From Siphonodentalium dalli (taxonomy: Eukaryota > Mollusca > Scaphopoda > Gadilida > Siphonodentaliidae), in contig CP136061.1 in NCBI GenBank assembly GCA_032622095.1, positions 58,049,301-58,113,300 of the forward strand: DNA of 64,000 nt. Reading direction: 5' to 3'. Made by a program: the position numbers and the translations under genes. The notes beneath the pieces are model-generated. The model did no database searches. It had not been told where the DNA came from and saw only the letters and a list, made by a program, of their open reading frames with translations. Of this stretch, positions 289 through 56,530 are shown piece by piece. Numbering within the stretch: position 1 is the stretch's first letter; each line of letters begins with the position of its first letter.

Positions 289-352
289 CTGCACAGCAAC
301 AAGATCATAGACTATGGGCTGAGTTGCACCGGTCACACTGAACTGAATTTTC
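289..352 (-). CDS. Exon o: USP strand before the catalytic His box (last exon in window)
   Basis: The 64-nt exon (AATTTGCAG to GTGCAG|GTAATA) joins in phase and encodes [20 protein letters not shown] plus Q. In USPs the strand Y-x-L-x-A-V is followed directly by the catalytic H-x-G and GHY. That part must be in the next exon, left of this window, since no acceptor/His box was found in 1-288. Confidence 0.75.
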
Positions 353-3300
353 CTGCAAATTTTAAAATAGAAACCTAAGTTAACAAAGAGTTAAAAACTA
401 ATCATTTGGCAATAGATCAATTTGGAATAATAAACCTTTTCTTTCAATCAAGTTATCTTCTATTACACCCAATTGTATTCTATTCTAAATCTGAAAAATT
501 ATAATTTGAATAAGAAGATCCAGTACCCTATTCTTCCCCCTCTGTGACACCTTCCAGATCAATACAGTAATTAATCCTAACTGGCTATAATACACAACGC
601 TGTTGAGAAATAAATTAACTCGTTAAGGCAGGAACTCTGCCCACAATAAGATGACTTGGCCATTTTGTTTTTATTAAACTTGATCCATATGTTGTTGGGC
701 AAGTCTCATGTACCATATATCAATTAAATCAGTTTACATTCGTTCAAGTTACTTTTACTGATAAAAAGATAAACTATGTGCTAAAGTGTTACTGTATTGA
801 TCTGGAAGGTGTCAGAGAGGAGTACAAGTAGGGTACTGGATTTTCTGATCCAAAATATAAATTTTAAGATTCAGAATAGAATTCATTTTGTGGAATATAA
901 GATAACTGAATTGAAAGAAAAGGTTACATTCCAATTTCATCCATTGCCAAATGAATAGCCTTTAACTCTAATACCAAGCTGTAGATGTATGCATGTGAAC
1001 CGTGCCCCTGTTTTTTGTAACTTGAACAAAATTGATGCATCCCCCAGAAGTCATAGATCATAACCAAATTGGACAAACATATATTATGCACTTGTTCAGG
1101 TGCGTGAAACTTATAAGTTAGTAACGACCCCGCTTGCGCGCCCGAGCTCGGGTCATGTATAGGTAACAGGCGTGATGTCAAACATAAATTACCGTATACC
1201 ATGAAGGAGAAATTTTTATTCACACATTTTCGTGAGAAAATCACGTTACTTCCGGCAGTGGTCTCACAAAATCGCAGAATGAGGTATGAAACGAATTTTC
1301 TACTTCACAACTTTTGTATGTGGCAATGGACAACTGATGTATTTATTTATTTATAAGCAGTAAGTTGGTATGAATGTGTCCTACATATGTTCATATTATA
1401 CTAGATCAGTTTCATTTGTTAACAAAATGAAGGCAGTTACGGCGTAATGACGTCAAAGCGTTCTTTTTCTCTGCGGGCCAGAATCCAGACATGACTGAAC
1501 TTGTCATGTCGTCTTCGCGGACAACTGATTTCACCTCACTATACACTGGCCATATATTGATTGGTGTATTGATTGAGCATTCAATCCATGCTCATGCACA
1601 TGGAATCTGAGTTAATTATAATATCACATCAAGTTTTACATTTAAATAGAGCGAAGTGTTGAATTTTTCTGAAGCCAATACGATGTTTATATTTACTACT
1701 TCCCACTTCATATCAATGGTGTTCATTTATAAAGGTTTCCCTATATCATAATGATTATGTAAATCACCCGTATTAAAAAAAAATAATTCTTACTATTATC
1801 ATATTATTCAGGCATTATGCCAATTGGAGGAACGTAACATTCCTCTAACACAGCAAAAAATCTTAAACAAATCGACCGTACCACTCCATAATAACATCGT
1901 CTGAACTACACACAATTGTAAATATTTAATAATCGATTTGGGATGCATCTATAGGTACTATTATCACGGGGTCGTTCTATATGCCTAGCATATTATCATA
2001 TTATTCAGGCATTATGCCAATTGGAGGAACGTAACATTCCTCTAACACAGCAAAAAATCTTAAACAAATCGACCGTACCACTCCATAATAACATCGTCTG
2101 AACTACACACAATTGTAAATATTTAATAATCGATTTGGGACGCATCTATAGGTAATAAACTAGTGAAAATGTGTTCACCATCGACAGTCACTGCGTTTAA
2201 TTAATACATAAGAATGACGGTGCGGGTTGTAAATTGAGATATAATATTTGTAAAAATAGCAACTTTGAACAGGATTATTTTTCTATTTTACCACCCCACT
2301 GGAGTGTCTCACATCATTTTAACTTTGCTCTGACATTGTTCATTCTTCATCACTGTTAAGAAACTAAGAATAAAGTCCTACCTATCAGGTATAATTCCTC
2401 CTTTTCTTCTTGAAATGGATGAACTGGGTGTCTTCTGTTGAAAGCGCTCAACCCAGAAGACCATGTCTTCTGGTAGTGTCAAAATAGTTCGGCCCATATC
2501 AGCAGGGAATTTATTCTTACATATCTCACAATATCTGAAAAATAGAGTCATTGTGTTATTCTCAACTGATGTTAACCAGACCTTTATAGCAACTTTATAC
2601 AGTAAAACCTCTCTAAACCGAACACCCTTCAAACCGGCCATTCTGTTTGCTTTATAGAGGTGTTCGGTTAACAGAAAATCACGAAACCATCGGAATATAG
2701 TGCCACCATCAGTATGAGTTATCGAGACCTTAAAACCTCATTACTGATTACTTAAACTTTATTCAATAACTACACAATTAACATAAATTGCAATAGATAC
2801 ATGCTATAATAAGAAATAAATATATGTATAGATAAACCAGGAAACACGGAAATGATACATTTTACTCTGATTCACGGTTTTTGAAAATGTTGACAGTAGA
2901 TTTCAACTCTGAGCTATGGTTTTCCCCGACTGCTCATTGATGGTGATAATTTTATTTAATAAATCTGTGATGGTAACAATAAACCACCATCCTGTAATTA
3001 GTGAATTAGTGTTTAGTTTGGACAATTGTTGTAAAAACAAACAGTCCATTCCAGCACAATAGCTGATGTAATAACAACGTGCCACTGCTCTAAGTACCTG
3101 GGAAGTCACCATTGTTCAATCAGCTTGAGATACAAGCAAACACCTATCTATCTGAATCTGCATGTTTCTAAAAGTGGTGCAGTAACCAATTCAGCATTAG
3201 GCGCATCTAATTAGACACCTGTTGTTTTAATCCGTTTCAAAGATTTGCCGATAAAAAAGACCGCTAATTAAATTGGTACGCTTATTCAATAGTACAAAAT

Positions 3301-5351
3301 ATATTACCTGTGTGAATGCGTCATCATCCGGTATCGCTTTCGGAATTTATTAAGAATAAGATAAAATATAAAGACGCAGTCTGTTTTTATTTTCATGCAT
3401 TATATTAGTTTTAATTTGTAAATAAATCTGATTAATGTACCAGGAACACTTCGTCCGTTTGTATCTAAATGTTGTCACTGACGGTTATTGGGTTCAAACA
3501 TAGGTCAACTCAAATGCGGAAACGTTCACATCATTACCTTTTAACTGATTGTCTTCGGTCTCTTCCATCGCTTTAAACGTTAAACATTAGTGTATTTATT
3601 CACTTACGGGCTAATAAAGCTGTCCGATATTCGGAGAACAGAGGTTTCGGAATGGAGAGAGGTTCGGATTGTAGAGGGTCCAGTTTAGAGAGGTTTCACT
3701 GCAGTTAGTAATTCTAGCCTAGCCTGTGTCAAATTATTTAGTCATGCAAACACTAAAATGCAAAATGGCTGCTGGCAGCCATATTTTTTTGGCCGAATGA
3801 CCCCAAAATGACTCGTTTCCCATCTACATGTCAAAATCAACATCCATGTCAATATGACAAATCTCATAATTATCAGACCAAAGGTACGACCTGTAGCCCA
3901 TGCTAAAGTAAATTGTTGACAAATTATGCACACAGATGATGGATACCAAACTAAAGTCGAGCTAAAAATTGCTGATGGCAGCCAATTTAAAAAAAAACAA
4001 ATTTCCAGAAAAATCAATGGCTGCCATCCAGAGGTCACCCTGAAGATCCATTTAAATCTTGTTGATTATCGTATGAGGGAGGTGGTCTGTAAGGTGTGCT
4101 AAAGTATATTTTGATGGACACACACAAACAGATGTCAACCTATGGCAGTAGATCAAACTTGACTTCATCATGTTGAGCTAAAATAATTTGATCTAACCAT
4201 ATGTCTTTGGCAGAGAAACAGACATACAAACTTTCTTTATAAGATATAAACTGATCTGGAATTATAGGTCCGAAACCAAAATGTTAACCTACGGAGGGTT
4301 GAACTCTGATACAGGTGAAAAACTGTTTATTTTTTCAATGGCATATAACAAGTTACAGACTGAATGCAGTGCACAATGATTACCAAGTGTTATCTAAAAT
4401 CGGTGATCATGATTTTACATTTTACTGAAAGAACAGATTGAAGATATATATTAATTCATAATATTATACCATTAAATTTCCTGTAAAATGATAGTGTCTG
4501 GTAAATAATATACTAGTTAATTGTATGCAGAATATCCTATAGACCAAAATATTGAATATATTTACATACACAGCATTGTCACCAGACATATGATATTTCT
4601 TCTTTAGAGATTCATCTATCCCCATCTGCATGGACTTGAGTAGATCTATATGATAAATATTCAAAGTATCCACCTTTTTTCTTACCTGTTGATACAAAAT
4701 ATTAAGTATTTATGTGGCACATAATAAATACTCAGATATTATGGGTACCTCGAAACAGTGTGCGGAACTGCGCAGAAGTTCGCGGTACAAACAGAACAGT
4801 TATTATGCATGGGGAGTTGATTTAAAACATGTTTATTAATGAAATATAGTAGTAGAAGGTATTCAGTTACGAATTTGCAAGGTCAATTACCGTTTTATTA
4901 GATATATAGTGAGTGGTAGAATCTACCGCGCACTGTTTCGAGAAAAGCTTACTGCGCTATATATCTTCCGCGTATTGTTTCGAGAAAAGCTTACTGCGCA
5001 GTTGTTTCCAGAAAACTTACTGCGCGGTATCGGATTAATATAGCCATAGTTACGTGATAAATTACATATTATAAAACAATTTTTTTAAAACTCCCATCAG
5101 CTTTTATCCCGGCTTTAAACCGGCAGACTAAAAAAGTCAGGTAGTTGTCTTTCGTAGCGAACATATTATTTTTATCAGCATTGGCCAAAATGAAATTACC
5201 AGAGCCATATATGGCAAATCTTATCTCTCTCTGTTGATCAGTTATTATGTCAAGAAGTCTGTCCGTCAAAATAAGGTAATTTCAATATTTTCCAATCAGT
5301 CTCTAATATTGATCACATTGTTTAAACTTTTACAGTTATTATTTGTAGGCT

Positions 5352-5385
<34 letters not shown>

Positions 5386-8300
5386 TGTCCTTGGATGCTT
5401 CCGGCGCCCTGAATATATTATATATTATGTATATATTGGTCCCTGGTCCAATGGCGAGGAATAATGTTTGGAATTAATTTGTGCTGGCAATTAAGAATAC
5501 TTTTCCTTTAATTTTGGAATAAGAGTTGATCTGAAATAGCTATTAGGCCATAAATGTTCAACAGATCAGTTTCGATTTCCTCATATGTTTCCAAATTATT
5601 TATTGTTAAAATTCCGTTCGACGTGGAAAATAACCGACCAACGATTTTGGTTAGGTGCTTTTTAAATTTAAGTCGTGAGTCTAGAGTGAATCCCAGGAAC
5701 GTGGATTCGTTAGATTGCATGATATGTGTGTATCTCTTTCTGACATTTCGTCATTTATTTTTACTTTTATAGTTCTGTGTGTGAGAAATGGTGATAGGAG
5801 TGTAACCATTTTTAGGGGAGGTCTGTTGTCATTCTTAATTTACACCTACATACTGAATCGGACCATCGGACGCTTTTCAGTTTCTATACATCTAAGAATA
5901 GTGCCCCGGTTTTCCATTCTATATTAATTGCCGTTTTGATATCTTATGTCAGTCTATATACATGCACAGGAGCTTGGAATTTGGTCAAACCCCTCTTTTA
6001 TTGGCGGAACCAACTCCCGGGACCATAGGTCACAGGAGCTTGGAATTTGGTCAAAACCCCTCTTTTATTGGCGGAACCACCTCCCGGGATCAGCTTGGAA
6101 TTTGGTCTAGTCCCGGGAGGTGGTTCCGCCAATAAAAGAGGGGTTTTGACCAAATTCCAAGCTCCTGTGATACATGTCCATGCAAAGCCCTCTTTACCGC
6201 TCCGGTAAGCCCTTTGGAATTTATTCAAAAAGTTGGTACCCTCGAGATGGAATTTGATTCTGCTGCTGATTACTCGTTCGAAAAGTTTACACGTACATTG
6301 TATAGGCTAATTGGTCTATAGTTTGTGGGTATTGTATATGGTCTTTCCCAGGCTTAGGCATCATGGTTACTATTTTTCCATATTTGTCATATTTTGGGAT
6401 AGTAGCCAAGCCTCATGCATTTAGTATACAGGTTTGTGAGTCTGTTAAATAGGGTGTCAGGGGTTTGCCTAAGTATTCCGTAGGTGATTTCGTCATCCCT
6501 AGGGGTTTGTTGGGTTTGCCTCTTTTGAGTTTTTGCCAGTGTCTCACCTCCTGGTTAGTGCCACACGGGTACAACACTGATGAAGACATTGTTGAAGACA
6601 TTGATTGTATCAGATCGAAATTCGAATGAAATTGTCAGCGTTAACTTCATACTTACACCCTGCAGATTTAATCACTCAATAATCACTGATGGTTGTGTTG
6701 TTTCAACATTTTAACTTCTCATATTTTCTACAATGACATGCAGTAATTAAGCTGTCAGCTCTAATCAGTCGACCTCTATACTACTACTAATTAAAACGTG
6801 TAAGTGTGGTCCCTAATCCGAAACCACGAGTAAGCTTCAAACAATGCGCGGAAGTTATCGCGCAGTAAGCTTTTCACGAAACAGTGCGCGGTATATTCTA
6901 CCACTCACTATCTCTCTCTCCAATTAAAACATTAAAGTAACCTTACAAATTCGCAACCGAAGACTGTCTACTACTATAGTTCATGTGCATAATAACTGTT
7001 TTATTTGTACCGCGCACTTCCGCGTAGTTCTGCGCAGTTCTGCGCGCTGTTTCGAGGTGCCGGATATTATTGAGTCATGTGTGGGCATGGCCAAAGAAGT
7101 GTAACTCTAAGCCTATAGTAAAGATAAAAGTATGAAAGAATCTGCTCCAATGATAATTACTGACTTGTCAAACTTTATGTAATAACTTTGTAGATATATT
7201 TAGAATACTGTATAGACATTAACTGAAAACCAATAAATTAGCTAACAGTACATTGCAGTAAGTTACTACTGATTTACAACTAAAATAGTTAGTACAATAG
7301 TAAATGACTTCACAAAAACTATTTAAAAAATAATTATTCCATCGGGATAAATTGTAAAAGCAAAATGTGGGTCTATAATAGTCTTGAGGCATGTTCAATT
7401 CCAAAAAGAAGAGAAGGGAAGCTTAAACACCTATGCTCTATTTAATCGAGCCCCCTCAACGCGATTGGCCTGTGGTATTACCGTGGTTGACTGTGATGTA
7501 TGATACCACTGTGCCACATTTCATCTTGAAGTTTTGCACCTAATCAAAACTTGATTCCAAAAATATCCACACTATTTCATCCAATTAAAAAATTATTATA
7601 TGCCCATTATTAGAGCCAACAGTTACACATACATTTAATTGGTATATACCATTACATGCCCATCAAATATAAATGCAAAGCACCATTGATACTAGATTTA
7701 AACTGACACATGCATTAATGCGACTTGAGAATATACTAGAAAGTATCAACCTGTTCGGGTAGAATTATTGTTCACCTAATCTAATCTTGTATCTACATAT
7801 CATGGCTTTGGATAGAGTAAGTTTTCGAATAACGTAGTCAAATAAATAGATTGCGCTCTAGTAAAATACCTGTTGGCTCAAGATAATAAAACCAGGGAAA
7901 ACATGAAGCAACATTGAGGTCTTTCAACAACTCATGTGCACGATATATATACTTACGAATTATTAGATATGTAACCTTCAGATTTGAACTTTGCAAAGGC
8001 CTTGTGAGAAGTTATAAGTCATGCCTGCCATATGTGACACATTCAATAAACATGTTCACTTAAAAAATCTGAACATTTCCTATGTGAATATCAACTCATT
8101 AACTAGCATATTCTAAGGACAGGGTAGAACAGAAAGAAAATAATTACAGTGATTCTAATACACTTACATTCATGCAATTTGAACATTGCCAATCATATAC
8201 AACACATGTTCCTTGGATAATTTTCGCATTCACCATCTCACTAATTACCAAGTCCAAAAATTCTCGGGCATCATGTTGCTGATTTTGTGGAAATCTGCCA

Positions 8301-29300: not shown

Positions 29301-32300
29301 TGAAACATGTAAATTTACCTGCAGTTAGACATGAGAAATGACACAATTTGCATTGTTCACTTATGTAATCACGCCTCCATTGTGTTATCCTCAGATATTT
29401 ATTGGGAAGAACCACCATTTCTATAAAGACCTCTGATGTGATGTGGCAGAGGTGTCTTGGGAATGCTAATGCAAATTTGTTATTCATGTTACAAGCAAAT
29501 AATTATATACAATTATTAAATCCAAAAGGTTTAGATCAGTTCCTACCAATATGGCTGCTCACAATTTTCCAGCACACACAGGGGGGGGGGGGGGGGGGGG
29601 GTCGGAAAAAATTTCCAGGCACGTATGATCATTTTTATTTTTTCCGGCCACAGGGGACCCAACCACCCAATTTCTTCCGTTTTCGGCCTTTTTTCCAGGC
29701 AATTTTGGACACCCACCCTTTTTTTTTCGTTTCAGGAAGTTTTTTCTGGTCAGTTTTGGACACCCACCCCCCTTAAATTTGAGAAAAATTATCAATTGAG
29801 CAACCAAATAGCTGATTATCCTGCATCATCATAATTTATTGCACGATATTTGAATACAACAGTGCATAATGAGATAACTATACTATTTGAATTTATCATA
29901 TAAGTGTCATTAATCAAGAAATGTGTCAACATAATCACATTTCTAGGGATATATTGGCAGAGTGCCAAGGTTTTTATTAACATTCATTTTCATAATATTT
30001 AGTCACATGATCTAGTCACATAATCACATTTGAGTATTCTACAGAATACATGGTACCGGTGTGGGGAATATACCCAGGGGAGGGGGGGAGATATCGTGTT
30101 ACACCGGTACAACAAATTTCAGATTATTTGATATTTTGATATTTGCTATGTGATATACAGTAATGCCCTAATTAATCGACTCCATAACCACAGCAGAATA
30201 ATGGGTAATTTAATTTTAATTTCCGACTAAATCTTGAAAAATTACCCATTATTGTGGTTATGGAGTCGTTTAATTAGGGCATTACTGTATTGCTGGAATC
30301 AAATTGTTTATCAAAACATGTGGAAATACAACTGTTCATCCCAGTTTGAAGAATAATGCTAATACCAAACATAACCATGATATACATGCGTGACTCTTCT
30401 TGGGGCATCCCAGAAACCAGAACTGAGTAAACATGTTATAGCGTGTAATGGCAGGCTGGTAGTCACTGCCTGAAGTAATAGGCTTCGTAATAATTGGGAA
30501 TAATATGGATGGATAGCCCAATTTCACTTCTTTTTTGCTCACGATATCAGTGACGATAAAATCTTCGTTACAAGCTGATCCACATTAACATGGAAAACAA
30601 TGTGAAATTGTTCAAGCTGGCCCGGCTGGCCTTAAATTTATTTGATAAGATTTTATGTTTTACGTTGTCAAAAGTCTATTTTATTCCATTATTTATTATA
30701 TCTTTATTTCCATGTCACATATGGTCAAGGGTGCTTTCATTTTATTGCTTATTTTCAGCTGAGTTCTGCATAGTTATTCTTATTTTGTTGTATCAGTAGA
30801 TGGAATACTGATTAAATTTTATTTTTCCAATAACGCAGTGTCTAGTTCTATCAAGTTGAATTTGGGTTATTGTTGGCCATTGTGCAACTGATCCAACTTC
30901 TGATAACCTCTATATGTAGTATAGCATTAGTATTAACTATATATGACCTGTTTCTGTTCAAAACACATCAAAATAAGACTCAATAGCAGGAATGGAGAAA
31001 AAAATTTGGCATATGGAAAAAACTGTTTTTTGGACCCACGAGACACCCACTGCTCTCAATTAAATAGTCATTTAAAGATACATGTAGTAATTAATGCATT
31101 TCACTAGTTGTTATCCTCTACTTTTTGTGAAAGCTATTCATTTCCAATCCATTTTTATACTCTCCCATAAAAATCCCTTAATTTTTTGTTATCAAAGTAA
31201 GGTTCTTTACTGTTAACCTCTTCGCTGCTATGACGTCTGTAACTATTACGGACGTAAAAGTGCACGCCATGTGCTACTTCAGCACACTAGAAATAGGCCA
31301 TTATACATAAATGGAACTCACATATTGGTGCATCAGATTAAACTGTATCTCCAAGTTTCTAACAGTGTATGATGTTCCACGATTGTGAACGATAATAGCC
31401 TTTCAACTGAGTCACTTTTATAGTTCTTGTGGTATTCCCGTTATAGTTTCCCATTGGAAAATGGCAATAACATCAACAGCCCAGCACACGACGTCATAAC
31501 ATCATTTAGCAGCGAAGAGGTTAAGTATAAGATGTGCCATACAAGTCGTGTAACACCTTATTAGACTTCTAAAATTTTATTCCAACCCTTGACAGTCATT
31601 CAACTTGAAAAAGACACGTAGAAGGGTTGGAATCTCGTGGAATAAAATTTTACAACAAGCCAATAAAGGTGTTACAATCTCATTTATATTATCTTTTAGA
31701 GTTTTTCATATAGCATATATTCCTAAGTCCATCTAAACTTTCCACATTTGGAGATGAGCTAAGCAGGGAAACCCACTAGCAGGCTGTAATGCTCAACATT
31801 TGTCTCAGCCAAAATAATGGACTGAATTCAACAAACCTTCAGAGAAAATCGCATCCAATGTAACAGTTTGAACGTCAAAAATATTCTATCATTGTAATTG
31901 TGAAAGCCTTCACTGTAATCTTGATATCTGTAGAAAAAACCGCATGCATCGCATTCTTTAATACTAACTTGAACATCTGTAAAAAGAAACAAAAAATATT
32001 TGACAAACCAAGATAACGGTACATGTATTGGTTCTCGAAATTTAAAATAATTTTAGATGCTGTACTTGTATTTATATTTGTGCAGTACTATTTTCTCTGA
32101 GTTTTGAATTCACTCATCAAGGTTTTTATTCTTCGTAAAAGACTTCAGTATCTGGTGATAGTTTCAGTTCTTAATATCATTTCTGAAAGTATATGTTTAT
32201 ATTAATGATAATCTTGTCAAAAATTGACATCGAGCTGCATCGTATATAGGTAGTACTCACCCACCACCCATCCCACCTCTGGGTGAGCAGATAATAACTA

Positions 32301-35300: not shown

Positions 35301-38300
35301 CTTATATAAATATATTTACACACTAAGTGTTGTCATCACTAAATCCAGCATTCTGATTGGTCGGCGCCCACGTGGCTAGTTGCAGTTATTTCTCGGTGAA
35401 TGCGCACGCCTCATAACACCAAGCTAATAACACCATCGATACGTCATTAGGTTTGGAAAGACGAACGCGTAATGCTTTGGGCGCATTTTGATTCGCGCAG
35501 GATTGACTTAATACATCATCGGGTTTCAACATGAAGAGAAATTGTTCCTATTAACTTTTGCCAAGGGTGCTATTGGGTATTTTGGGCTCATCTTGTCACG
35601 ATACACTTTTTCGCTAAATGTATATAAATATAAGGATTAACTGTCATGTGGACTATTTTTATGGAGATGTAATGGTGAGGTAAGTGGACATAACTTGTAT
35701 GTAAAACCCTTCGGGTTTTACACAAGTTATGTCCACTACCTCACCGTTACATCTCCATAAAAAGAGTCCACATGATAGTTAATCCTTATATCATTACCAC
35801 ATGATGTTCCCTGTGGTTTGGTATAATCTCAAGAGTCATACTATTTCTTGCTCAATTTTAAATTCATGCACACATTGTTGCGGGGAAAAATATGAGTGAA
35901 TTCCATATTTGATTCCAATTCCTGTAAATTATTTCTCCAATAAATGGGTGCGCCGGTGGTTTGAGATTTGAAATCCAAGATGACTGCTGGCAGCCATGTA
36001 TTTCTAATGAATTTTGGGAATTTTTTTTACAAGCTCCCATCTGTTGGTCATCCCAAATATACATATGTATTTGGCGACAATATGATAAGGGATATATGGC
36101 CTGTAGGGTATAGCAAAGGATAAAAGAATAAAATCAAAGGTGGCCACGGCGCCCATGTTTTTAAACTGAATTTGGACAAATTTTATGACTCTCATATTGT
36201 GGTCACCAAGAAGATCCATATGAATTATGTATTTTAGCTGGAAAAAACACATACCATTTAACTTTTGGTTCAGATCAAATAATCCAAACTACAGTTATTG
36301 GTCAGACACCAAGTGAAAGTGTCAGTGACACGGTAGCTCAAATTGGTTACGAGATCATTTCATATGGAGCGATTTTGTTACTATGGCTGTGATTCAATGG
36401 AGTCATTACGAATGTGTAATTCTGAAATGACTTAAGTAATACAAGATGGCTCCCATTTAGAGGTCAACCCGAAGATCCGCATAAAGTTTAGTGATAATCG
36501 GATTCTGTATGTAGTCTGTTGGTTGTGCCAAAAGAGTTAGTCATGCTAAGAGTAAAATCCAAAATGGCTGATGGCGGCCATGTATTTCATTGAAATTTGG
36601 AAAACAATTTATGGCTCCCATCTAGAGGTCAGTCTCAGGTCACCCAGAAAATCCATTTGGTGATGAGTGGATGATAGATGTCTGTAGGGTGTGATAACAT
36701 AATTTTTTTTATGTATTCATGCATACACACATATGATAGATGCCAACTCATGGCAATAGCTCAAACATGACTTTGTAATGTTAAACTAAAAGTACTAAGA
36801 GATGTACATATAGATGAATGGACAGACTTATTACATACATATAATACAACTGTTTTTGAATGTGGGATTAAAAAGGACACTCACCTCTTTCAACAATCGC
36901 ATCCAAGCAATATATTATTCCCTTCTTTGATATAACTTTTTTTGTTAGTGACTGTGACCCACATTCAGAGCATGTGGTCTCTGATGGCGTCACATCGCTA
37001 ACTCCACAGACATTTCTTTCTGTAACATCAATTGGAATTCTTTTGGAAGAGGAGATATATCCAAGAACATTTTTCACATGTGCCCCGGGGTAGGCACTTG
37101 CCATTACTGGGTCTTTTCTTGGCTCCTTTAGTGTCTTGTTGGTGACCAAGCATCTCACTAGCCTTCGATGAATGCACGAACGGTGCCCTGGCTTGCAGTC
37201 ACATTTTAAGCTGTTGTCATCATGATTTAACTTGACAACAACCCGACCCAGCTTCCCCCAGTACCGTGTCTCATCGCCATGGAACACTGAGAAAAATACT
37301 ATATTGTCACGGTCTGGATAGTCTGCTTCGCAAGTAAAAATCAAAGGTGCTCCAATTGATGCTGATTTGGACAATAATGATGATGCCGAAGAATAATTTT
37401 CAGAACTTAAAAGATTTAGATCATGGAATCTCTTTAAATCCTCTTCAGTTATGTTGCTTGGATTTGCTTGATGCTGAGCATAGTGGATTGACCGAAGATG
37501 CTTGCACTGGAAATACCGCTCGCCGGATCGCATATATATTTCACCAATTGCTTCACATGACTTATCCTCACAGAATAGGATATTCTGTTTTCGGTCAAAT
37601 CGAACATGCAATGGTTGAGGAAACCCTTTGAATGCTTTCTTCACCATAAAAATACCATGCTGTTCGTCCACACAGATTCCTCTCAAATAATGGTTGGCAT
37701 TGATGTCTTCTGTTGCATCCTTATGTTTGTAATTTATATGGCGTTTAACATTTTTTAACAACATTTCCTCTGAACACACAGGACAACTTCCCAATCGATA
37801 TGAATACTTCCTTATTTTTAGCAATGGTCCATCCGTCTCATCTGTCGATATGTCTCTATTTATTTCTGTAGAGGTGTCATTTTGTTCTGGTTTATTATCT
37901 GGATTTTTTATAATTAAGGTGGATGTGTGTGGTATATTCATAGGGAGAATTAAGGCGGAGGTGTCTGGTTTCTTTTTTGCCTTGCATGTTTTTGACACAT
38001 GCGTCCTGAAGTCATATTTTCTTGATTTTATTTCTGAACACAGTGGACAGTGATAATGGCCATGTGTCGATTTCCTGCCACTTAAACAGTTTCTGTGGCA
38101 TGGCAAGCATCTGTAATCTGAAAGTAAAAAAAATTCATAAAAAACATACACCACAAATTCTGGTTGACATAGTCATCGCATAATAAATGAGTTTATCATG
38201 TAGGTTGTGCTAAAGAATTTAGTCAGGCAAAATGCAAGATGACTGATGCAACCATGTTTTAAAAAACATTTAGGAACAAATTGATGAATCCCATTCAGAG

Positions 38301-39830
38301 GTCATCACGAGGACCCATATAAAAATTGAAAATCATTCATATTTGCTAACTACCATTGAGAGGTCATCCTAATCATGGCTGTAAATATGCTAAAGTGTGC
38401 CAATGGATTGATAGCCATGTTATTCAATGAAATAAACAAAACGTTAAAGCTTTCTTTTAGAGGTCAACCGAAAATACTTATGAAGTTTGGTGATAACTGG
38501 AAGAGGCTGGTAGGACAAGCCTAAGGAGATAGTTGACATACGGATGCCAACTCATGGCAATAGATCAAAGTTGACTTGATTTAAAAAATGTTAAAATATG
38601 ATAGCTATCATCTGGGGGTAATTCTAAACTAGAGCCCTGTGAAACGGAAATTCGGCAACCAAATAAAATCTCAAATCAAACCAGCTGTCCGATGTTGACA
38701 TCAAATCTGAATCAAAACGTAATAAGCACAGGACAGTGATAAATCATAGCTGATGATCGGATATCATTCAAATTACTGTTTACATATTTATCATGTAAGC
38801 TGACATTGTTTTCCAATATGAAACAAGACAGAGTTGAACAGATAAACTTTTTGTAACTGACATCGTTCTCATCTGTATTTTTAAACAAAAATTAAATTTA
38901 TATCACTTAGTATAACATGTGACATAGACATCATCTAAGCAGATCTTGATGCTTACTATAAAATTAATAATTATTCCAGATGGCTAATTGGGGTTAATGT
39001 TCAATCCGTATGAATTTTGGTGACTGGATGAGAGATATGGCATGTAGGACACACACATGCTGTCGCATGCACATGCAAAGACATTGAATGCCATGGCAAA
39101 AGAGCTCAAACTTTACTTTGTCAAACTGAGCTAAAAGAAACTTCGGCAATAGGAAAAGTAGCATATAAGTGCTTTTTTAGAGTGCAATTTCCTCTGCCAA
39201 TGACACAGATCTTTTTGGTCAGAGATAAATTTTGCTTGAAGATGGACAGATATCTTATTGCTAGCCATCCAAATGTAAGTGAGAAATGAGGACAACATTG
39301 CCAACAATTTTTATTTAAATGTGATGCTAAATTTAGCATTAAAATCAATCTTAAAAGTCATATTCAGAATTCAGATCGGCAAATGTTTAACCTTGGTGAT
39401 AGTGCAATACTATGATCGGAATCATAATTTAGCGTTTTTATGTTGAATTATAGAGTATCCTGTGATACATTATTATAACAAATGTATATAATACAACAAA
39501 TTATTATAATTTATGGGTCAAATAGGGAGACTATTATAAGATAATGCACTGGCACACGCTGGTGAAATTCTGAGTCGAAATGGGGCGTAACTCCATCTAA
39601 GATATACATCATTAACTTTGCTGTGCATTTTCATAATCATGTTTAATAAACACCACACTAAAATGCAAATTAAGCACACTTACTATTGACAATAACTGAT
39701 GCTGCATAATGTTTTGCTATATGTTGTTGGAGAAGGCCTGGTTTTTTTATGACAACATCACATATGTCACACTTCCCGTGTAATCCTCTAACATATATTG
39801 TAACTGATACATCAATGCTGATTATCGATT
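289..39830 (-). CDS. Multi-exon gene: zinc fingers, KDZ/HMGXB3-like transposase-derived core and USP domain (partial at both ends)
   Basis: Fifteen minus-strand exons join without a stop or phase clash: 39684-39830, 36885-38117, 31837-31976, 27753-27954, 19474-19664, 14595-14736, 13236-13889, 11447-11473, 10916-10987, 10174-10404, 9128-9240, 8168-8311, 4570-4685, 2382-2534 and 289-352. Together they give 3,629 nt, about 1,209 codons. Every border reads AG|exon|GT. The order is C2H2 fingers (residues 1-120), CxC/SWIM-like clusters (about 380-570), SAP-like segment (about 630-670), KDZ-like block (about 685-900), low-complexity linker (about 903-980) and USP domain (about 985-1209). Known: HMGXB3 carries KDZ-associated cysteine clusters and a transposase-like region; USPs are cysteine deubiquitinases. 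Inferred: a nuclear, DNA-associated deubiquitinase derived from a KDZ-type transposase. Neither the true start nor the His box is in the window. Transcript structure is hand-predicted; exon confidence differs by entry. Confidence 0.8.
353..2381. repeat. Intron with dispersed repeat family (about 1081-2340)
   Basis: The stretch from about 1081 to 2340 is a diverged relative of about 61441-61810. Shared landmarks are a CTTGTTC..ATAAGTT segment, CGTCTGAACTA..CAATT, ATCGATTTGGGA.GCA and (A/C)CC.ACTGGAGTGT. No terminal repeats or coding region could be assigned. A minus-strand open frame at 924-1244 lies within this repeat and is not taken as a gene. From 353 to 1080 nothing is recognised. Confidence 0.5.
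1794..2154. repeat. 197-bp tandem duplication
   Basis: The block starting TATTATCATATTATTCAGGC at 1794 recurs from 1991. About 164 bp of each 197-bp period is nearly identical, up to ..GCATCTATAGGTA at 1957 and 2154. One difference seen is GGATGCATC versus GGACGCATC. It is a recent local duplication inside the dispersed repeat of this intron. Confidence 0.85.
2382..2534 (-). CDS. Exon n: USP second CxxC and RF box
   Basis: The 153-nt exon lies between CTATTTTTCAG and GATAG|GTAGGA. It encodes [20 protein letters not shown], then [17 protein letters not shown]. This matches the USP order CxxC..a.k......lP..l.l.l.RF. The second CxxC pairs with the one in the exon at 8168-8311 to make a zinc site. 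A basic tail ([11 protein letters not shown]) follows. Confidence 0.85.
2600..3701. mobile_element. Tigger/pogo-like non-autonomous TIR element
   Basis: The left end reads CAGTAAAACCTCTCTAAACC and the right end, reversed, reads CAGTGAAACCTCTCTAAACT, with further match to a CCGAAC-type block. CAGTRAAACCTCTC termini and a TA target are typical of the Tigger/pogo branch of Tc1/mariner. The left flank is TA; the right flank is CA, one change from a TA duplication. The roughly 1.1-kb interior has no transposase frame. Confidence 0.7.
3755..4200 (-). repeat. Copy of the 160-bp-unit repeat family (reverse orientation)
   Basis: The stretch carries AAAATGGCTGCTGGCAGCCA, GGCCGAATGACCCCAAAATG, CATCTACATGTC and GGTACGACCTGTAGCCCATG in the same order as the inverted copy at 26575-26832. 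Part of a second unit follows (ATGGCTGCCATC at 4016, GATCAAACTTGACTTCATCA at 4150). It is degenerate and has no coding potential. Confidence 0.75.
4570..4685 (-). CDS. Exon m: USP fingers segment
   Basis: The 116-nt exon follows TATCAACAG and ends GCTGT|GTATGT. It encodes [20 protein letters not shown], then [17 protein letters not shown] domains have such a segment (l.l...si...l...f..e.l.gdn) between the two CxxC pairs. I chose the GTATGT donor over a GTAAAT four bases downstream because only the former gives a phase match to the next exon, restoring SGDNAVYCEIC. Confidence 0.75.
4745..5035 (+). repeat. Left arm of a long inverted repeat
   Basis: The arm contains TACCTCGAAACAGTGTGCGG, GCGGTACAAACAGAACAG, TAGTGAGTGGTAGAATCTAC and GCGCACTGTTTCG..AAGCTTACTGCGC. 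The same features occur in reverse at 6818-7063. Together the arms bracket about 1.8 kb that includes a broken RT. It may be a foldback element or two related MITEs in opposite orientation. Confidence 0.75.
5355..5385 (+). repeat. Poly-C tract, 31 nt
   Basis: An uninterrupted run of 31 C residues. It is a likely site of length error in sequencing or assembly. Open frames across it (Pro-rich) are not real genes. Confidence 0.95.
5480..6600 (-). pseudogene. Degenerate non-LTR retrotransposon reverse transcriptase
   Basis: Read on the minus strand, fragments in order resemble the non-LTR RT domain. [18 protein letters not shown] (about 6500-6560) recalls the LKKGKAPGxDG start. [17 protein letters not shown] (about 6320-6370) recalls the PKPGKd..YRPISL block. 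[14 protein letters not shown] lies about 6190-6228, and [20 protein letters not shown] (about 5655-5715) recalls the FLGxxLDxxLxwxxH block. Frames shift and stops occur throughout, so it is dead. The foldback at 5965-6169 interrupts it. Confidence 0.7.
5965..6169. repeat. Perfect 59-bp inverted repeat plus a third direct copy
   Basis: Positions 6031-6089 and 6111-6169 are exact reverse complements over 59 bp. They start CACAGGAGCTTGGAATTTGG and end CACCTCCCGGGA, around a 21-nt spacer that repeats CAGCTTGGAATTTGGTC. A third, nearly identical copy in the left-arm orientation spans 5965-6022. Perfect arms mean the duplication/inversion is recent. It sits in the dead RT. Confidence 0.9.
6818..7063 (-). 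repeat. Right arm of the long inverted repeat
   Basis: This is the reverse-complement relative of 4745-5035. It reads CGAGTAAGCTTCAAACAATG, GCGCAGTAAGCTTTTCACGA, TCTACCACTCACTAT, GTACCGCGCACTTCCGCG and ends CTGTTTCGAGGTGCC. The two arms are diverged, so they are not a recent duplication. Confidence 0.75.
7064..8167. other. Intron sequence without recognisable features
   Basis: AT-rich intron between the exons at 8168-8311 and 4570-4685. I see no coding frame, terminal repeat or tandem array in it. Confidence 0.6.
8168..8311 (-). CDS. Exon l: USP QQ-DA-EF box and first CxxC
   Basis: The 144-nt exon (CCCTTACAG to ATGAAT|GTAAGT, phase 0 both ends) encodes [19 protein letters not shown]. This is the USP box usually written QQDAxEFL, here with one extra spacing residue (QQHDAREFL). 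It ends with DWQCSNCMN, the first CxxC of the USP zinc finger subdomain. This is among the clearest USP signatures in the gene. Confidence 0.85.
8312..9127. other. Intron, nothing recognised
   Basis: AT-rich intron with one A-run (about 8759-8774). No gene or repeat structure could be supported. Confidence 0.6.
9128..9240 (-). CDS. Exon k: USP domain, thumb segment
   Basis: The 113-nt exon (TATTTTACAG to CTTGCG|GTGAGT) completes a split TCT codon and ends in phase 0. It encodes [20 protein letters not shown] and [18 protein letters not shown], a helical stretch of the length expected between the Cys box and the QQDA box of a USP. No motif of its own was recognised; position and phase support it. 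Confidence 0.75.
9241..10173. other. Intron, nothing recognised
   Basis: AT-rich. Two small plus-strand open frames (9522-9707 and 9704-9910) have no motif and lie in an intron, so they are not annotated as genes. Confidence 0.6.
10174..10404 (-). CDS. Exon j: Thr-Pro repeat linker and USP Cys box
   Basis: The exon lies between TTGACTACAG and CCAT|GTGAGT, phase 1 in and out. The first half is a T/P/A/M repeat ([15 protein letters not shown] and so on) encoded by a short coding minisatellite. The second half is the catalytic start of a ubiquitin-specific protease: [19 protein letters not shown]. The canonical USP Cys box is GLxNxGNTCYxNSxLQ. Here the nucleophile Cys (about residue 998), the oxyanion Asn five residues before it, the NS pair and LQAL are kept, while G-N-T is replaced by R-Y-L. 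Confidence 0.85.
10405..10915. other. Intron, nothing recognised
   Basis: AT-rich intron between the Thr-Pro/USP exon and the serine/acid linker exon. A minus-strand frame spanning 10233-10454 is the coding minisatellite read in another frame. Confidence 0.6.
10916..10987 (-). CDS. Exon i: serine/acid linker
   Basis: The 72-nt exon follows TTTTTTTAG and ends AAAG|GTATGA, phase 1 in and out, so it too is skippable in frame. It encodes [20 protein letters not shown] and similar residues with no recognisable domain. It continues the linker. Confidence 0.6.
11447..11473 (-). CDS. Exon h: 27-nt microexon, acidic linker
   Basis: A 27-nt exon lies between TTTTTGCAG and ACGG|GTATGT. It adds SESDDGKT in phase 1 on both sides, so skipping it would keep the frame. 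The short acidic peptide starts the flexible linker between the transposase-like and USP parts. A microexon this small is only moderately certain. Confidence 0.55.
11474..12879. other. Intron with a short GC-richer patch
   Basis: Mostly unrecognised. The patch at about 11640-12050 is richer in CpG (CCGCGCGGGG at about 11683; GGGGGGCGGACAGCG at about 12025). It could be repeat-derived or regulatory; nothing in the sequence decides this. Confidence 0.4.
12880..13021. repeat. Short inverted repeat, possible MITE
   Basis: GATAAACATGCTATCTGATG at about 12880 faces CACCAGATAGCATGTTTATC ending near 13021, arms of about 25 bp with a one-base difference. The interior is AT-rich. No clear target-site duplication was seen, so the class is open. 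Confidence 0.55.
13236..13889 (-). CDS. Exon g: KDZ-transposase-like core
   Basis: This 654-nt exon starts after TTATTCACAG and ends at GAATGAGG|GTATGT, phase 1 in and out. It encodes the best-conserved part of the transposase-derived block: [20 protein letters not shown], then [20 protein letters not shown] with [13 protein letters not shown]. Later come [20 protein letters not shown] and [16 protein letters not shown]. The order [16 protein letters not shown], (S/Y)D near an H, HP..-FCL-D-FH, STHIF-R-hH is that of HMGXB3/KDZ proteins as I recall them. The fold should be RNase-H-like. I cannot say whether the catalytic acidic triad is intact. Confidence 0.85.
13890..14594. other. Intron, nothing recognised
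   Basis: AT-rich intron between the SAP-like and KDZ-like exons. No repeat or coding signal was found. Confidence 0.6.
14595..14736 (-). CDS. Exon f: SAP-like DNA-binding segment
   Basis: The 142-nt exon lies between TTTTTTTAG and GGTTCTG|GTGAGT. With the previous exon it reads as a SAP-type motif: a first helix, [20 protein letters not shown] with the typical G-T-K-x-x-L-like turn, then a second helix. It ends [10 protein letters not shown] and joins in phase to [10 protein letters not shown] of the next exon. SAP motifs bind AT-rich DNA; that function is inferred here from the pattern only. Confidence 0.75.
14737..17289. other. Intron, AT-rich, nothing recognised
   Basis: I see no terminal repeats, tandem structure or protein motif. 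The plus-strand frame 16877-17074 has no support. Confidence 0.5.
17290..17700 (+). repeat. Two-copy tandem repeat, about 175 bp
   Basis: The block TAACTCTAGAATGGAAAATC / CCGAACAAAAC.ATG / GAACA.CCATAC / ATTGAGATCC.AGCAC / TTATGACATGAA occurs twice in tandem (landmark at about 17371 and 17546). A diverged relative forms part of the 970-bp array unit at 55386-59644 (GGAAATCCGAACAACACGAT) and a fragment lies near 52590-52680. Confidence 0.75.
17870..18742 (-). mobile_element. Helitron, non-autonomous, minus orientation (3' member of a pair)
   Basis: Read on the minus strand it starts TCTATACTATATATTTTGAG at 18742. It ends with a GCCGCCAGTGGCGGG hairpin followed by CTAACCTGCTAG at 17870, then a host T. 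Helitrons begin with TC, end in CTRR after a short hairpin and insert between A and T. The interior holds two units of TTTCAAGTCGATAGCTCCAC with CGCATGCGCGAAGC, shared with the elements at 21906-22603 and in the 970-bp array. Its 5' TC directly touches CTAG of the next element. Confidence 0.75.
18688..18708. repeat. (CA)n microsatellite
   Basis: About ten CA dinucleotides followed by a TATATATA run, inside the Helitron at 17870-18742. Helitron-like elements of invertebrates often carry microsatellites in this subterminal zone. Confidence 0.9.
18743..19438 (-). mobile_element. Helitron, different subfamily, minus orientation (5' member of the pair)
   Basis: On the minus strand it begins A|TCTATTATATATTTTGGAAG at 19438. 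It ends with hairpin CCCCGGACGAAGTCGGG and TCACCTTCTAG at 18743. The subterminal part (GGATGGATTTCGACGGG.., TTTGTCGGG..) matches the plus-strand Helitron at about 62283-63025. No Rep/helicase coding is present, so it depends on an autonomous relative. Confidence 0.75.
19474..19664 (-). CDS. Exon e: linker into SAP-like segment
   Basis: Acceptor AAATTTTAG and donor CGAAAC|GTAAGT bound 191 nt, in phase 1 and out phase 0. It encodes a [20 protein letters not shown] stretch and ends with [11 protein letters not shown]. That end continues into the next exon to give a SAP-like helix pair ([18 protein letters not shown]). The WAPWIG and NTEH blocks resemble the start of the transposase-like region in HMGXB3 homologues. 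Confidence 0.8.
19665..21905. other. Intron, AT-rich, nothing recognised
   Basis: No domain, tandem repeat or inverted terminus was found. The small frames at 19763-19975 and 20226-20612 lack any motif. Confidence 0.5.
21906..22345 (+). mobile_element. Helitron, first of a head-to-tail pair
   Basis: It starts A|TCTCATATATATTTTGAAGA and runs through a (TGTC/TATG)n microsatellite, CTACGATTCTCGACCGATCG and units of GGTGGAGCTATCGACTTGAA. It ends GCCCGGACAACGTCGGCC hairpin, TCATCGGCTAG. The next base starts another copy. One hairpin base is changed here (GGCC for GGGC). Confidence 0.8.
22346..22603 (+). mobile_element. Helitron, second of the head-to-tail pair
   Basis: It begins TCTCATATATATTTTGAAGA immediately after CTAG of the previous copy and ends at GGACAACGTCGGGCTCATCG-GCTAG, followed by host T at 22604. 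It is a shorter version with one GGAGCTATCGAC unit. The pair as a whole is bracketed by host A (21905) and T (22604). Confidence 0.8.
22604..23134. other. Intron, nothing recognised
   Basis: AT-rich, with an A-run near 22845. No feature could be supported. Confidence 0.5.
23135..23411 (+). repeat. Dispersed 'ggggcataactc' repeat
   Basis: Two tandem-like units contain AAGGGGCATAACTC.GGT, AAAATTGG.GGACGGAAC and AAATT.GAACTTGA. Relatives lie at 26200-26575 (same orientation) and 27055 (AAAAGGGGAAATAACTCAAC). Such units are common in mollusc genomes; no coding content. Confidence 0.65.
23412..26832. mobile_element. Composite repeat with inverted ends around a 160-bp tandem array
   Basis: The left end reads TTTTTAGCTCAACTTACTTG..AGTTTGAGCTATTGCCATGG and the right end is its reverse complement (CCATGGCAATAGCTCAAACT..AAGTAAGTTGAGCTAAAAA). 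Between them lie the 160-bp array (23500-26098), part of the 'ggggcataactc' repeat (26200-26575) and an inverted 160-type copy (26575-26786). The inverted ends could be a long-TIR element or two independent solo copies facing each other. Confidence 0.65.
23500..26098 (+). repeat. Tandem array of about 16 units of about 160 bp
   Basis: Each unit contains TTGGCGCGGGCTACAGGTCG, TCATGAAATTTGTCATG, GACATGTAGATGGGAACGAG, GGTC.TTCGGCCAAAAAACAT and GGCCGCCAGCAGCCATCTTG. Counting the ATGTAGATGG landmark by eye gives about 16 units from 23586 to 25995. Two alternating variants are visible (GCTGGCAGCCATCTTGGATTTCAA.. and GCCAGCAGCCATCTTGGATTTTACTC..), which suggests a higher-order two-unit period. No coding content. 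Confidence 0.9.
27050..27290 (+). repeat. Dispersed non-coding repeat ending in a G-rich hairpin
   Basis: It runs from AAAAAGGGGAAATAACTCAA through CCATGGTGGTTGATGCCTGT, GGACGGATGGACGGACAAGA and the facing pair TATACCCCCCAC / GTGGGGGGGGTATA. The facing ends form a short stem. It resembles repeats widespread in lophotrochozoan genomes; class unknown. Confidence 0.55.
27753..27954 (-). CDS. Exon d: CxxC-containing segment
   Basis: The exon is bounded by TTTTCAG and GAATG|GTAAGT, in phase 0 and out phase 1. It carries [20 protein letters not shown], the type of 'CxxCG..P..LI.D..RKG' stretch found before the transposase-like block of HMGXB3/KDZ proteins. The preceding residues ([20 protein letters not shown]) look like a compact helical segment. 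Confidence 0.8.
28380..28715 (+). repeat. Minisatellite, about ten units of 31-34 bp
   Basis: The unit is CCAGGCTCATAACCATAACC plus TAATC.GACA, repeated with many substitutions. It is an aged array in an intron. Read in reverse it yields a GYGYEPG-like open frame (28239-28787) that is not a gene. Confidence 0.85.
28716..30157. other. Intron with a 21-nt poly-G run, otherwise unrecognised
   Basis: A run of G spans 29581-29601. After it, TTTTGGACACCCACC is repeated at about 29703 and 29754. No gene or element boundary was found. Confidence 0.5.
30158..30287. mobile_element. MITE, 130 bp, TA target (copy 1 of 3)
   Basis: The ends are CAGTAATGCCCTAATTAATC and its reverse GGGCATTACTG, flanked by TA on both sides. 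The long arms (GACTCCATAACCACA / TGTGGTTATGGAGTC) form a near-complete hairpin. Two relatives are at 40058-40215 and 54927-55111. TIRs of CAGTAATG with TA duplication fit a Tc1/mariner-type MITE. Confidence 0.85.
31217..31520. mobile_element. piggyBac-like MITE, 304 bp
   Basis: Flanked by TTAA on both sides (31213-31216 and 31521-31524). The ends are CCTCTTCGCTGCTATGACGT and, facing it, GCAGCGAAGAGG with ACGACGTCATAACATC inside. TTAA duplications with CCY-starting TIRs are characteristic of piggyBac elements. The interior has no transposase frame. Confidence 0.75.
31549..31676. mobile_element. Imperfect hairpin MITE, 128 bp
   Basis: The left arm TGTAACACCTTATTAGACTT..AAAATTTTATTCCAACCC faces GGGTTGGAAT..AATAAAATTTTA..CAATAAAGGTGTTACAA. 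The arms are about 55 bp and interrupted by small indels. No clear target duplication was seen; superfamily open. Confidence 0.65.
31677..31836. other. Intron, nothing recognised
   Basis: Short AT-rich stretch between the hairpin MITE and the CxC-cluster exon at 31837-31976. Confidence 0.5.
31837..31976 (-). CDS. Exon c: CxC cluster continuation
   Basis: The exon lies between TTTTTACAG and AAG|GTTTGT, enters in phase 1 and leaves in phase 0. It encodes [15 protein letters not shown] followed by [15 protein letters not shown] and a hydrophobic end ([15 protein letters not shown]). The CxxCG-FFYRY..F-NYND pattern is what I know from the cysteine-cluster region of HMGXB3-like proteins. It pairs naturally with the CSECG of the preceding exon and the CVQCG of the next one to build a zinc-binding unit. 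Confidence 0.8.
31977..35628. other. Intron, mostly unrecognised
   Basis: A degenerate CAAGATGGC pair (about 34043-34062, TTCAAGATGGCGTCCAAGAT) may belong to the 160-bp family. The patch 35345-35540 is CpG-richer with GATTGG and CCCACGTGG boxes, which looks like a repeat or a promoter; I cannot tell which. No coding content. Confidence 0.4.
35629..35790. mobile_element. Hairpin MITE, 162 bp, nearly perfect arms
   Basis: The left arm AAGGATTAACTGTCATGTGG..AGTGGACATAACTTG and the right arm are reverse complements over about 75 bp with a few differences. They meet at AAAACCC-TTC-GGGTTTT. TATA borders both ends, possibly a TA-type target. It is almost all stem, so a transcript through the intron would fold strongly. 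Confidence 0.8.
35940..36800 (-). repeat. Degenerate copies of the 160-bp-unit family
   Basis: Recognisable pieces are GAAATCCAAGATGACTGCTG (35968), AGCAAAGGATAAAAG..GGTGGCCACGGCGCCCATGT (36110-36160), ATACAAGATGGCTCCCATTT (36439) and AAATCCAAAATGGCTGATGG (36555). At the end there is TGGCAATAGCTCAAACATGA (36753). The order is that of the inverted copy at 26575-26832, with more divergence. Confidence 0.65.
36885..38117 (-). CDS. Exon b: C2H2/C2HC fingers plus SWIM-like CxC cluster
   Basis: This 1,233-nt exon starts after CTTTCAG and ends at GAAAGAG|GTGAGT. It holds a CLPCHRNC cluster, a C2HC finger (CPLC, 12 residues, H-x4-C) and a C2H2 finger (CPVC, 11 residues, H-x4-H). An acidic/serine linker follows, and further on there is a SWIM-like C-x-C-x6-C-x-H motif ([12 protein letters not shown]) followed by [14 protein letters not shown] pair comes near its end. 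KDZ-associated CxC clusters in HMGXB3-type proteins have this general form. The exon is entirely open, and its codons read like a conserved gene rather than a decayed transposon. Function of the fingers is inferred to be DNA or protein binding. Confidence 0.85.
38118..39683. repeat. Intron holding further degenerate 160-family copies
   Basis: About 38195-38600 carries AAAATGCAAGATGACTGATG, CCCATTCAGAGGTCATCACG and CATGGCAATAGATCAAAG. About 38980-39135 carries the terminal part CATGGCAAAAGAGCTCAAAC..GAGCTAAAAG. The remainder is unrecognised AT-rich sequence. Confidence 0.55.
39684..39830 (-). CDS. Exon a: C2H2 zinc finger (first exon seen)
   Basis: The exon follows a TTGATTTCAG acceptor and ends at AATA|GTAAGT. 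It is read in phase 1 at both ends, so its last base makes an AAT codon with the next exon. The 48 codons contain one C2H2 finger of spacing C-x2-C-x12-H-x3-H, starting CDICD and ending HIAKH, at about residues 24-44. No ATG start belongs to this exon, so one or more earlier exons should lie to the right. I could not identify them between 39.9 and 64 kb. Confidence 0.7.
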
Positions 39831-41482
39831 CTGAAATCAAATTTAAAGAACGCCATAAAAAAGACAATTCTTTTCTCAAAACAAGTGAATGTTTAACAGT
39901 ATAATATTAAGAAAATTATTTCTCAAAAACTAGTTTCTTCTGATTTATTTTATAGCCAGTAAACAACACAGTGGAGAAACATCTATAAATACAAATGAAA
40001 ACTCAACTTGTCTTGGAATGCAATTGTCCTCCAGTATAATAGTCGACATCCAACCTACAGTAATGCCCAAAGTAATGACTCTTTAAACACAGCAGAATGA
40101 TGGGTAGCTTTTCAGGATTAATTAAAAAAAAAAAAAGCCATATTTCAGACTAAATCCTAAAAAGTTACCCATAATTTTGCTGTGTTTAAAGAGTCGATTA
40201 ATTAGAGCATTACTGTAGTAGTAAATAAACATTTACTGAATGTCCTTCTTGTTCATTTCTTGTTTAGAGAGTAAAGATCCACTCGATGTCATAATCTTTT
40301 CGGGTGGGGTCAGGATCAGATTTGAGAACATGGATTAAAAGGTAAACAGCCAAGCGGTATTGATAACTTTTAACTGTTGTCTAAAGTTTAATGGATACAA
40401 ACAAATGTAACAATAATTAAATACATTCAGGCTAGGGACTTAAGACTCTGGCGTCATTTTGTTCAATTTGGTTACATAGTTGCAATTTAGATACATTATC
40501 GGCACAGACATTAGGCTGGTTGATGACACACATCTCCAGAACATAAATTTACTGCACCCCATTAATAGTTAACCTGTAGAATTAGGTATTATTGAGGTGG
40601 ACTAAAATTTTGCTTTGTAGACCTCATAATTTCTGCCACATAAGCAAAGCTTCTGAGGCTTGTTATTGATGAGATGAGTGCAGCATTTTTGCATGATATG
40701 CAATATCATTTTGAAATTATATCAATATACTATATATTATTCAGTGCAGTGAATTTCAAAATTGCTCATTTTTTACCAGTACCTGAATGTTTGTACATGC
40801 TGACACTACCAGATTATTCCCTGGTTCCCTACTTGTTGAAAATAATAATGAAATTGTCAAGTACTTTTTAACCCAATGTGGAGAGGGGAATTAGTAATAT
40901 ATTACAGTCTCTGAAGCGATGTTTTATACAATGGCAAATGTCAACCCAAAGAGGCATATTAAATTTTTTGTCAATTGAATTCAAAATATTAGCTGTAGGG
41001 TGGGCTGCATGTATTTTCATTGAAAGTATTTAAAATTTGGTAGCATGAGATCCCATCTAGAAGTGATCCTAAACATGCCTGTAAATTTTGGAAACAGCTA
41101 TCATTAAAAAATAAAAACAATTGAGAGGAAAAAATGTCAATCAATTGAATTGCAAATATTTAATGTCTGACATTGCATACCTCCAATGAACAATGATAAC
41201 TATTTGACATTTACTCACCCATTTTCATTCATTGGAGGAAATGATCATCCATGAACATCACCCAATGTAACATAACATCCAACAAGTATCTGCAATAGAG
41301 AAAACAGTTGTGACAGTTGTGTATAGTCCAGTATTTATTTCCTCTCACTGCTCAGCGCAAAATACATATATCTGTAATATCGCCAACCATTGTAGTAAAT
41401 GACTGTATTGTAATAAATATATAGATATTAAATCTATATAATACATGTAATTGTCAATATCTGACCATTAACAAATTACAGA
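39831..41482. other. Upstream side of the gene; one MITE, no exon found
   Basis: Apart from the MITE at 40058-40215 I recognise nothing. The missing 5' exons and promoter should lie here or further right. No ATG-bearing exon with a phase-1 donor could be supported. Confidence 0.4.
40058..40215. mobile_element. MITE, TA target (copy 2 of 3)
   Basis: The ends are CAGTAATGCCCAAAGTAATG and GAGCATTACTG with TA on both sides. Inner arms TTTAAACACAGCAGAATGAT / AATTTTGCTGTGTTTAAAG correspond to those of the copy at 30158-30287. It has an internal A-run. Confidence 0.85.
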
Positions 41483-56215: not shown

Positions 56216-56530
56216 ATGGCAGCAAATATGGTGTCATCGCAGACTTCGTTTGTCGCGGTTGAACAAGAAACAATGACGCTGAGACGGTCAAGGAGATCGT
56301 CTGCGTTAAAGCAGCAGGTAGAAAGAGCATCTCGCAAGAGGAATGCCTCGATCAGAACGAAATTATTCTTATTATTTGATTACAGAACGAAATACCTAAA
56401 CAAAATGATTGAACACACCATTGAGTGTCCTCATACCGGTGATCGTTCATACCAAATGGAGATCCAAGCATTACTGTTTAAGCTATGGCCTGAACAGACA
56501 TTGGATGGACCAAAAAGCAAACATTTCTAA
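56216..56530 (+). other. Possible captured coding fragment, 104-codon ORF (unit 1)
   Basis: An ATG in strong context (CTAGGATGGC) opens 104 codons starting MAANMVSSQTSFVAVEQETM. A basic stretch LRRSRRSSALKQQVERASRK follows. The second half (from about IRTKLFLLF) reads into the 17290-type repeat, so only the first 45 or so residues could be of gene origin. I do not recognise the protein. Helitrons are known to capture gene fragments, which is the reason for this call. Expression is unknown. Confidence 0.4.

Follow-up and report, generated by a model that had tools for sequence, protein, structure and literature searches.

Does a single gene in the scaphopod Siphonodentalium dalli join a transposase-derived protein to a ubiquitin-specific protease (USP), or have neighbouring genes been mistaken for one? 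The question was raised by an initial annotation of a 64,000-nucleotide stretch of contig CP136061.1 (C1:58049301-58113300, referred to here as the window), which is part of a nine-contig genome of 2.2 Gb. The annotation had proposed a domesticated KDZ/HMGXB3-like transposase fused to a USP, encoded by fifteen exons joined in phase into about 1,209 codons.

Reconstruction of a predicted 33-exon gene

The exon structure was reconstructed on the minus strand. The exons 13889-13236, 11473-11447, 10987-10916 and 10404-10174 and the eleven others between 39830 and 289 were all found at their proposed positions with canonical splice sites, and the USP box, the CxC cluster and the C2H2-like motifs were present as well. 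Three corrections apply to this exon series. Exon B (38117-36885) joins exon C (27954-27753) out of phase, and exon C then meets a stop. A scan for a phase-matching exon between B and C yielded one place, 31976-31837, together with shorter forms of the same exon. This 140-nt exon (B2) restores the frame between B and C, and its inclusion completes the match to the CxC4 domain. A homologue of B2 was found at paralogous loci on C2 and C6. The fifteen exons amount to 1,199 codons without B2 and about 1,246 with it. The second correction adds a likely start exon upstream, and the third concerns the gene end, which lies beyond 289. Reading 30 kb downstream revealed sixteen further exons outside the window, which complete the USP domain and then encode a PHD finger followed by a protease of Ulp1 type. 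As these last two domains fall outside the window, the initial annotation could not have included them; the fusion is larger than had been claimed.

The resulting gene model spans C1:58090589-58023923 on the minus strand (~66 kb), with its 3' end at C1:58023923, ~25 kb outside the window (window position about -25377). It has 33 exons and 32 introns of 335 to 4,931 bases, all 32 of which are bounded by GT/AG. The exons form a single open frame of 1,660 codons followed by one stop, and the phases agree throughout. Exon A0 (41289-41219) is the likely start exon and is the weakest exon in the model. The features are as follows (window positions unless a C1 coordinate is given).

41219..41289, minus strand: exon A0, 5' exon with inferred start codon (protein start MESIISIDV; exon end ATGG|gtgagt)
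39684..39830, minus strand: exon A, first C2H2-like finger
36885..38117, minus strand: exon B, 411 codons, two further C2H2-like fingers, SWIM-like CxCx7CxH and start of CxC4; under purifying selection
31837..31976, minus strand: exon B2, core of the CxC4 cluster, on which the frame depends
27753..27954, minus strand: exon C, transposase-like block; contains CVQCG and D565, a candidate for the first Asp
22714..22821, minus strand: exon D
19474..19664, minus strand: exon E, with a homologue at C3
14595..14736, minus strand: exon F, SAP-like motif (under Pfam cut-off)
13236..13889, minus strand: exon G, C-terminal half of the transposase-like block, with invariant D767 and E870
11447..11473, minus strand: exon H, acidic linker, 27 nt, symmetric
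10916..10987, minus strand: exon I, acidic linker, 72 nt, symmetric
10174..10404, minus strand: exon J, linker with Thr/Pro repeats; Cys box of the USP (predicted catalytic C1036)
9128..9240, minus strand: exon K, USP
8168..8311, minus strand: exon between K and M, helix and first zinc Cys pair (C1131)
4570..4685, minus strand: exon M, USP
2382..2534, minus strand: exon N, second zinc Cys pair of the USP (C1177)
289..352, minus strand: exon O, USP (IVYDLVAVQ), last exon inside the window
C1:58049012, minus strand: USP His box, outside the window
C1:58043355-58039657, minus strand: PHD finger, outside the window
C1:58035465-58023923, minus strand: Ulp1-type protease, outside the window

Domain organization and predicted catalytic residues

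Pfam searches with the joined protein identified four domains, all above their curated cut-offs and beyond what chance would give. CxC4 (PF18717, residues 423-508) scored 35.7 bits against a cut-off of 26.9, and UCH, the USP domain (residues 1028-1282), scored 61-64 bits while spread over nine exons. These are followed by a PHD finger (residues 1350-1394; 28.2 bits, cut-off 24) and an Ulp1/SENP-type Peptidase_C48 domain (residues 1503-1637; 36.4 bits, cut-off 20.7). The SAP domain, which the initial annotation had listed for profile searches, stayed below its cut-off of 23.9 bits (12.9 bits at C1), and the C4 paralogue came near it with 20.4 bits. An NCBIfam search of the N-terminal part gave no match. 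Exons H, I, S and V, which are short linkers, lie outside any domain.

The residues expected in active domains were retained. In the PHD finger all C4HC3 ligands are present (C1350, C1352, C1364, C1367, H1372, C1375, C1391 and C1394). The USP domain has kept four zinc Cys and its predicted catalytic residues C1036, H1257 and N1272 or D1273, the latter assigned by alignment to PDB sequences; D1265/D1266 were dropped as candidates for the third residue, as this alignment places N1272/D1273 there. The Ulp1 domain has kept its predicted catalytic residues H1536, D1559, Q1595 and C1601. In a PDB sequence search the nearest chains to the USP part were USP46, USP12, USP36 and USP15 (best E 5.7e-8), and the Ulp1 part matched the Ulp1-like SUMO protease 6dg4 (E 5.8e-4) and, weakly, SENP5.

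USPs cleave off ubiquitin, and enzymes of the Ulp1/SENP type do so with SUMO or related modifiers. A Cys-Trp box in the USP domain suggested a USPL1-like specificity for SUMO. This is disfavoured: the search matched no USPL1 chain, and the domain retains three positions of ubiquitin type. The positions that separate the SUMO-specific USPL1 from ubiquitin USPs have been described (PMC8983731), and at these the USP domain reads as ubiquitin-type, with QQ, the Glu of DAxEF and a Tyr following the His. Because of these residues, ubiquitin would be the likelier substrate of the USP domain.

Conservation of the arrangement at paralogous loci

Most of the exon joins are fixed, because domains span the junctions. 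Junctions G-J, R-T and U-W fall outside domains, and an in-frame stop two codons beyond the exon G donor makes a short alternative end possible. At these points a false join is conceivable between two or three adjacent genes of one strand, namely a transposase-like gene, a USP gene and a PHD-Ulp1 gene. The joins between domains are supported by paralogous loci. The C2 locus, on one strand, carries exon B (78125000), CxC4 (78122637) and exon G (78111705), and continues on the same strand with the USP Cys box (78107208), the USP helix (78100531) and the Ulp1 exon W (78076555). Genome-wide, the match to exon W is a weak one (E 7.3, 27%); it was accepted on its place, strand and boundary. The exon ends at the same residue as in C1, GWL(N/S)DN, and thus at the same 3' exon boundary. 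At the C4 locus, again on one strand, exon B (110113066) and exon G (110102137) are followed by USP exons at 110091200 and 110088459. Both loci were read piecewise. At the C2 and C4 loci exon G shares 48-49% identity with its C1 counterpart, indicating that the arrangement is old.

Two loci on C3 join parts directly. At C3:200661007 a homologue of exon G continues into a PHD finger within one ORF of 421 aa (PHD 21.6 bits, cut-off 24), and in a degraded copy at C3:299548245 the last PHD Cys pair reads into the start of Ulp1. The same order at C2 and C4, the transposase-PHD and PHD-Ulp1 joins in ORFs at these two C3 loci and the agreement of phases throughout all argue against a false join of neighbours, which we regard as very improbable. 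The narrower alternative left by the initial annotation, two separate genes, likewise appears unlikely. Its proposal of a KDZ-associated protein fused to a USP gains support from the continuous 33-exon frame and from the shared order at C2 and C4.

The degraded C3 copy (C3:299545734-299550221) also has the C-terminal half of a USP (53 bits, UCH) downstream of PHD and Ulp1, which is a different module order.

Relationship to KDZ transposons and HMGXB3

The description of the protein as KDZ/HMGXB3-like was borne out for the CxC4 cluster, and not for the HMG box or the KDZ profile. HMGXB3 (vertebrate HMG-box protein 3) is a domesticated member of the CxC4 family. Both proteins have the CxC4 cysteine cluster of KDZ type. 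HMGXB3 differs in having an HMG box; none was found at or near the present locus, where USP, PHD and Ulp1 follow instead. The HMG_box search gave no match at C1:58.02-58.11 Mb, C2:78.1 and C4:110.1 Mb, a search that a box split by exons could escape.

KDZ (Kyakuja-Dileera-Zisupton) DNA transposons share CxC4, and a sub-threshold KDZ match lies in the right order. The KDZ profile (PF18758) scored 14.5-14.8 bits against a cut-off of 26.6 and was reported in two of five paralogues; at the locus and the paralogues tested the curated Pfam cut-off was never reached. The protein further differs from KDZ transposons in its 33 exons, and terminal repeats were not found in the tested flanks. A profile comparison with true KDZ C-termini of the same genome was not significant (1.8% probability, ~30 columns). 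The Glu of the EQLH motif aligns with the Glu of ERLW in KDZ copies of the same genome. Candidates for the conserved acidic D-D-E of an RNase-H-like core are D565, assigned by eye, and D767 and E870, both of which are unchanged across five paralogues. A structure prediction for exon G alone reached a pLDDT of 33 and was set aside. Taken from CxC4 and the layout, descent from KDZ is likely rather than proven.

Genuine KDZ transposase ORFs above the Pfam cut-off occur in the genome on C1, C3, C4, C9 and other contigs.

A host gene or a mobile element

The gene could also belong to an autonomous or recently mobile KDZ-type transposon, in which case the selection observed would be selection for transposition, and the proteases would guard the transposase against silencing that depends on ubiquitin and SUMO, a role suggested for the deubiquitinases of Helitrons. 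Copies of the family are present on most chromosomes, many of them dead, and the five paralogues compared share the candidate D and E residues without change. There is also precedent: Helitrons carry deubiquitinases (VTD, OTU), which have repeatedly been domesticated later (PMC9741609), and F-box domains are joined with Zisupton domains (PMC12062965).

Exon B was used to compare selection on the gene with that on its copies. The dN/dS between C1 and dead copies was 0.17-0.49, and between dead copies it was 0.43, 0.90, 0.96 and 1.75, a contrast that fits one constrained gene with neutral copies. For exon G, pairwise dN/dS among the old paralogues was saturated and was left out. The exon B region has many copies; young copies are DNA-level fragments with intron flanks attached, which cover 2-3 kb around exon B and are not whole elements. 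No inverted repeat was found between the flanks tested (8 kb upstream and 4.7 kb downstream). In addition, the gene has 33 exons across 66 kb, and the loci that remain intact are old, with strong divergence (48% in exon G). On this evidence we consider a mobile element rather unlikely. A domesticated gene, as the initial annotation had it, is likely given the dN/dS contrast and the lack of inverted repeats in the tested flanks, though this falls short of proof.

Fragments of the exon B region, about 1-3 kb long with intron flanks and of 80-97% identity, were found at C3:32.22-32.28 Mb, elsewhere on C3, and on C5 and C6. They resemble dispersed dead gene pieces, and several of those on C3 are spaced about 18.6 kb apart.

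Proposed function and relation to known systems

PHD fingers bind histone tails, and SAP-like and zinc modules bind DNA. We propose, with a probability of about 60%, that the locus is one host gene encoding a protein of 1,660 aa, composed of KDZ-type-derived zinc fingers and a CxC4/transposase-like block, a complete USP, a PHD finger and an Ulp1 protease, and that this protein is a predicted chromatin-targeted eraser. The part of this proposal that can be read from the predicted protein is its domain content and residues. The transposase-derived zinc and SAP-like parts would locate DNA or repeat-associated chromatin, and the PHD finger would read a histone tail. The USP (C1036, H1257, N1272 or D1273) could then remove ubiquitin from nearby proteins such as silencing factors, and the Ulp1 domain (H1536, D1559, Q1595, C1601) could cut SUMO or a related modifier off nearby proteins. 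If active, the protein would be a single enzyme that removes two modifiers linked to silencing at chosen chromatin, and would offer a natural example of a DNA-targeting part joined to deubiquitinase activity. It suggests that the machinery of a transposon may, in an animal, have been converted into an eraser directed at protein tags on chromatin.

Enzyme cores often decay following such fusions, and both protease domains are divergent; the same fused gene might use a catalytically idle USP and Ulp1 as ubiquitin- or SUMO-binding modules. None of the results favoured this reading. Every predicted catalytic residue is present in C1, and the copies read at C2, C4 and C3 retain the USP Cys, which makes idle enzymes improbable.

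Relative to the active eraser favoured here, several known proteins are alike in part. The catalytic domains resemble USP12/USP46/USP36 and SENP/Ulp1 by sequence, with the difference that here both are in one polypeptide with a transposase-derived part. Transposon-derived proteins carrying deubiquitinases are already known: the Helitron VTD and OTU domains are likewise deubiquitinases on a transposon-encoded protein, whereas the present proteases are of other families (USP, Ulp1) and the transposon is of another class. In the F-box/CxC7 proteins known from fish and in F-box Zisupton (PMC12062965), a KDZ cysteine cluster is likewise joined to a ubiquitin-system domain; the F-box serves ubiquitin attachment, whereas the USP here would remove ubiquitin. 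A search confined to published papers gave no account of a transposon-derived protein with a USP, an Ulp1-type protease and a PHD finger, and literature searches on KDZ with USP and on the domain make-up of HMGXB3 found nothing. Part of the fusion may already be recorded, for instance in HMGXB3 relatives or as CxC4 with a protease in InterPro. That these loci represent an undescribed transposase-derived family, with a deubiquitinase, a SUMO-type protease and a histone reader in one DNA- or repeat-targeted chain that erases both modifiers, and with a module order reshuffled among paralogues, is a tentative suggestion to which we give somewhat less than even odds.

Repeated sequences at the locus

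The Thr/Pro-rich linker before the USP (10266-10376) is a coding minisatellite with a 42-bp period, and its length could differ among individuals. Positions 23780-25940, within an intron, hold a satellite-like array with units of about 164 bp, and similar units occur in the 3' region. The last coding exons (C1:58013415, 58020401 and 58026212) are tandemly duplicated past the gene end and are found again as a pair elsewhere on C1 (202731577 and 202738318). At 55829-59440, ORFs at an exact spacing of 970 bp (55829, 56799, 57769 and 58739) mark a tandem array of about four units.
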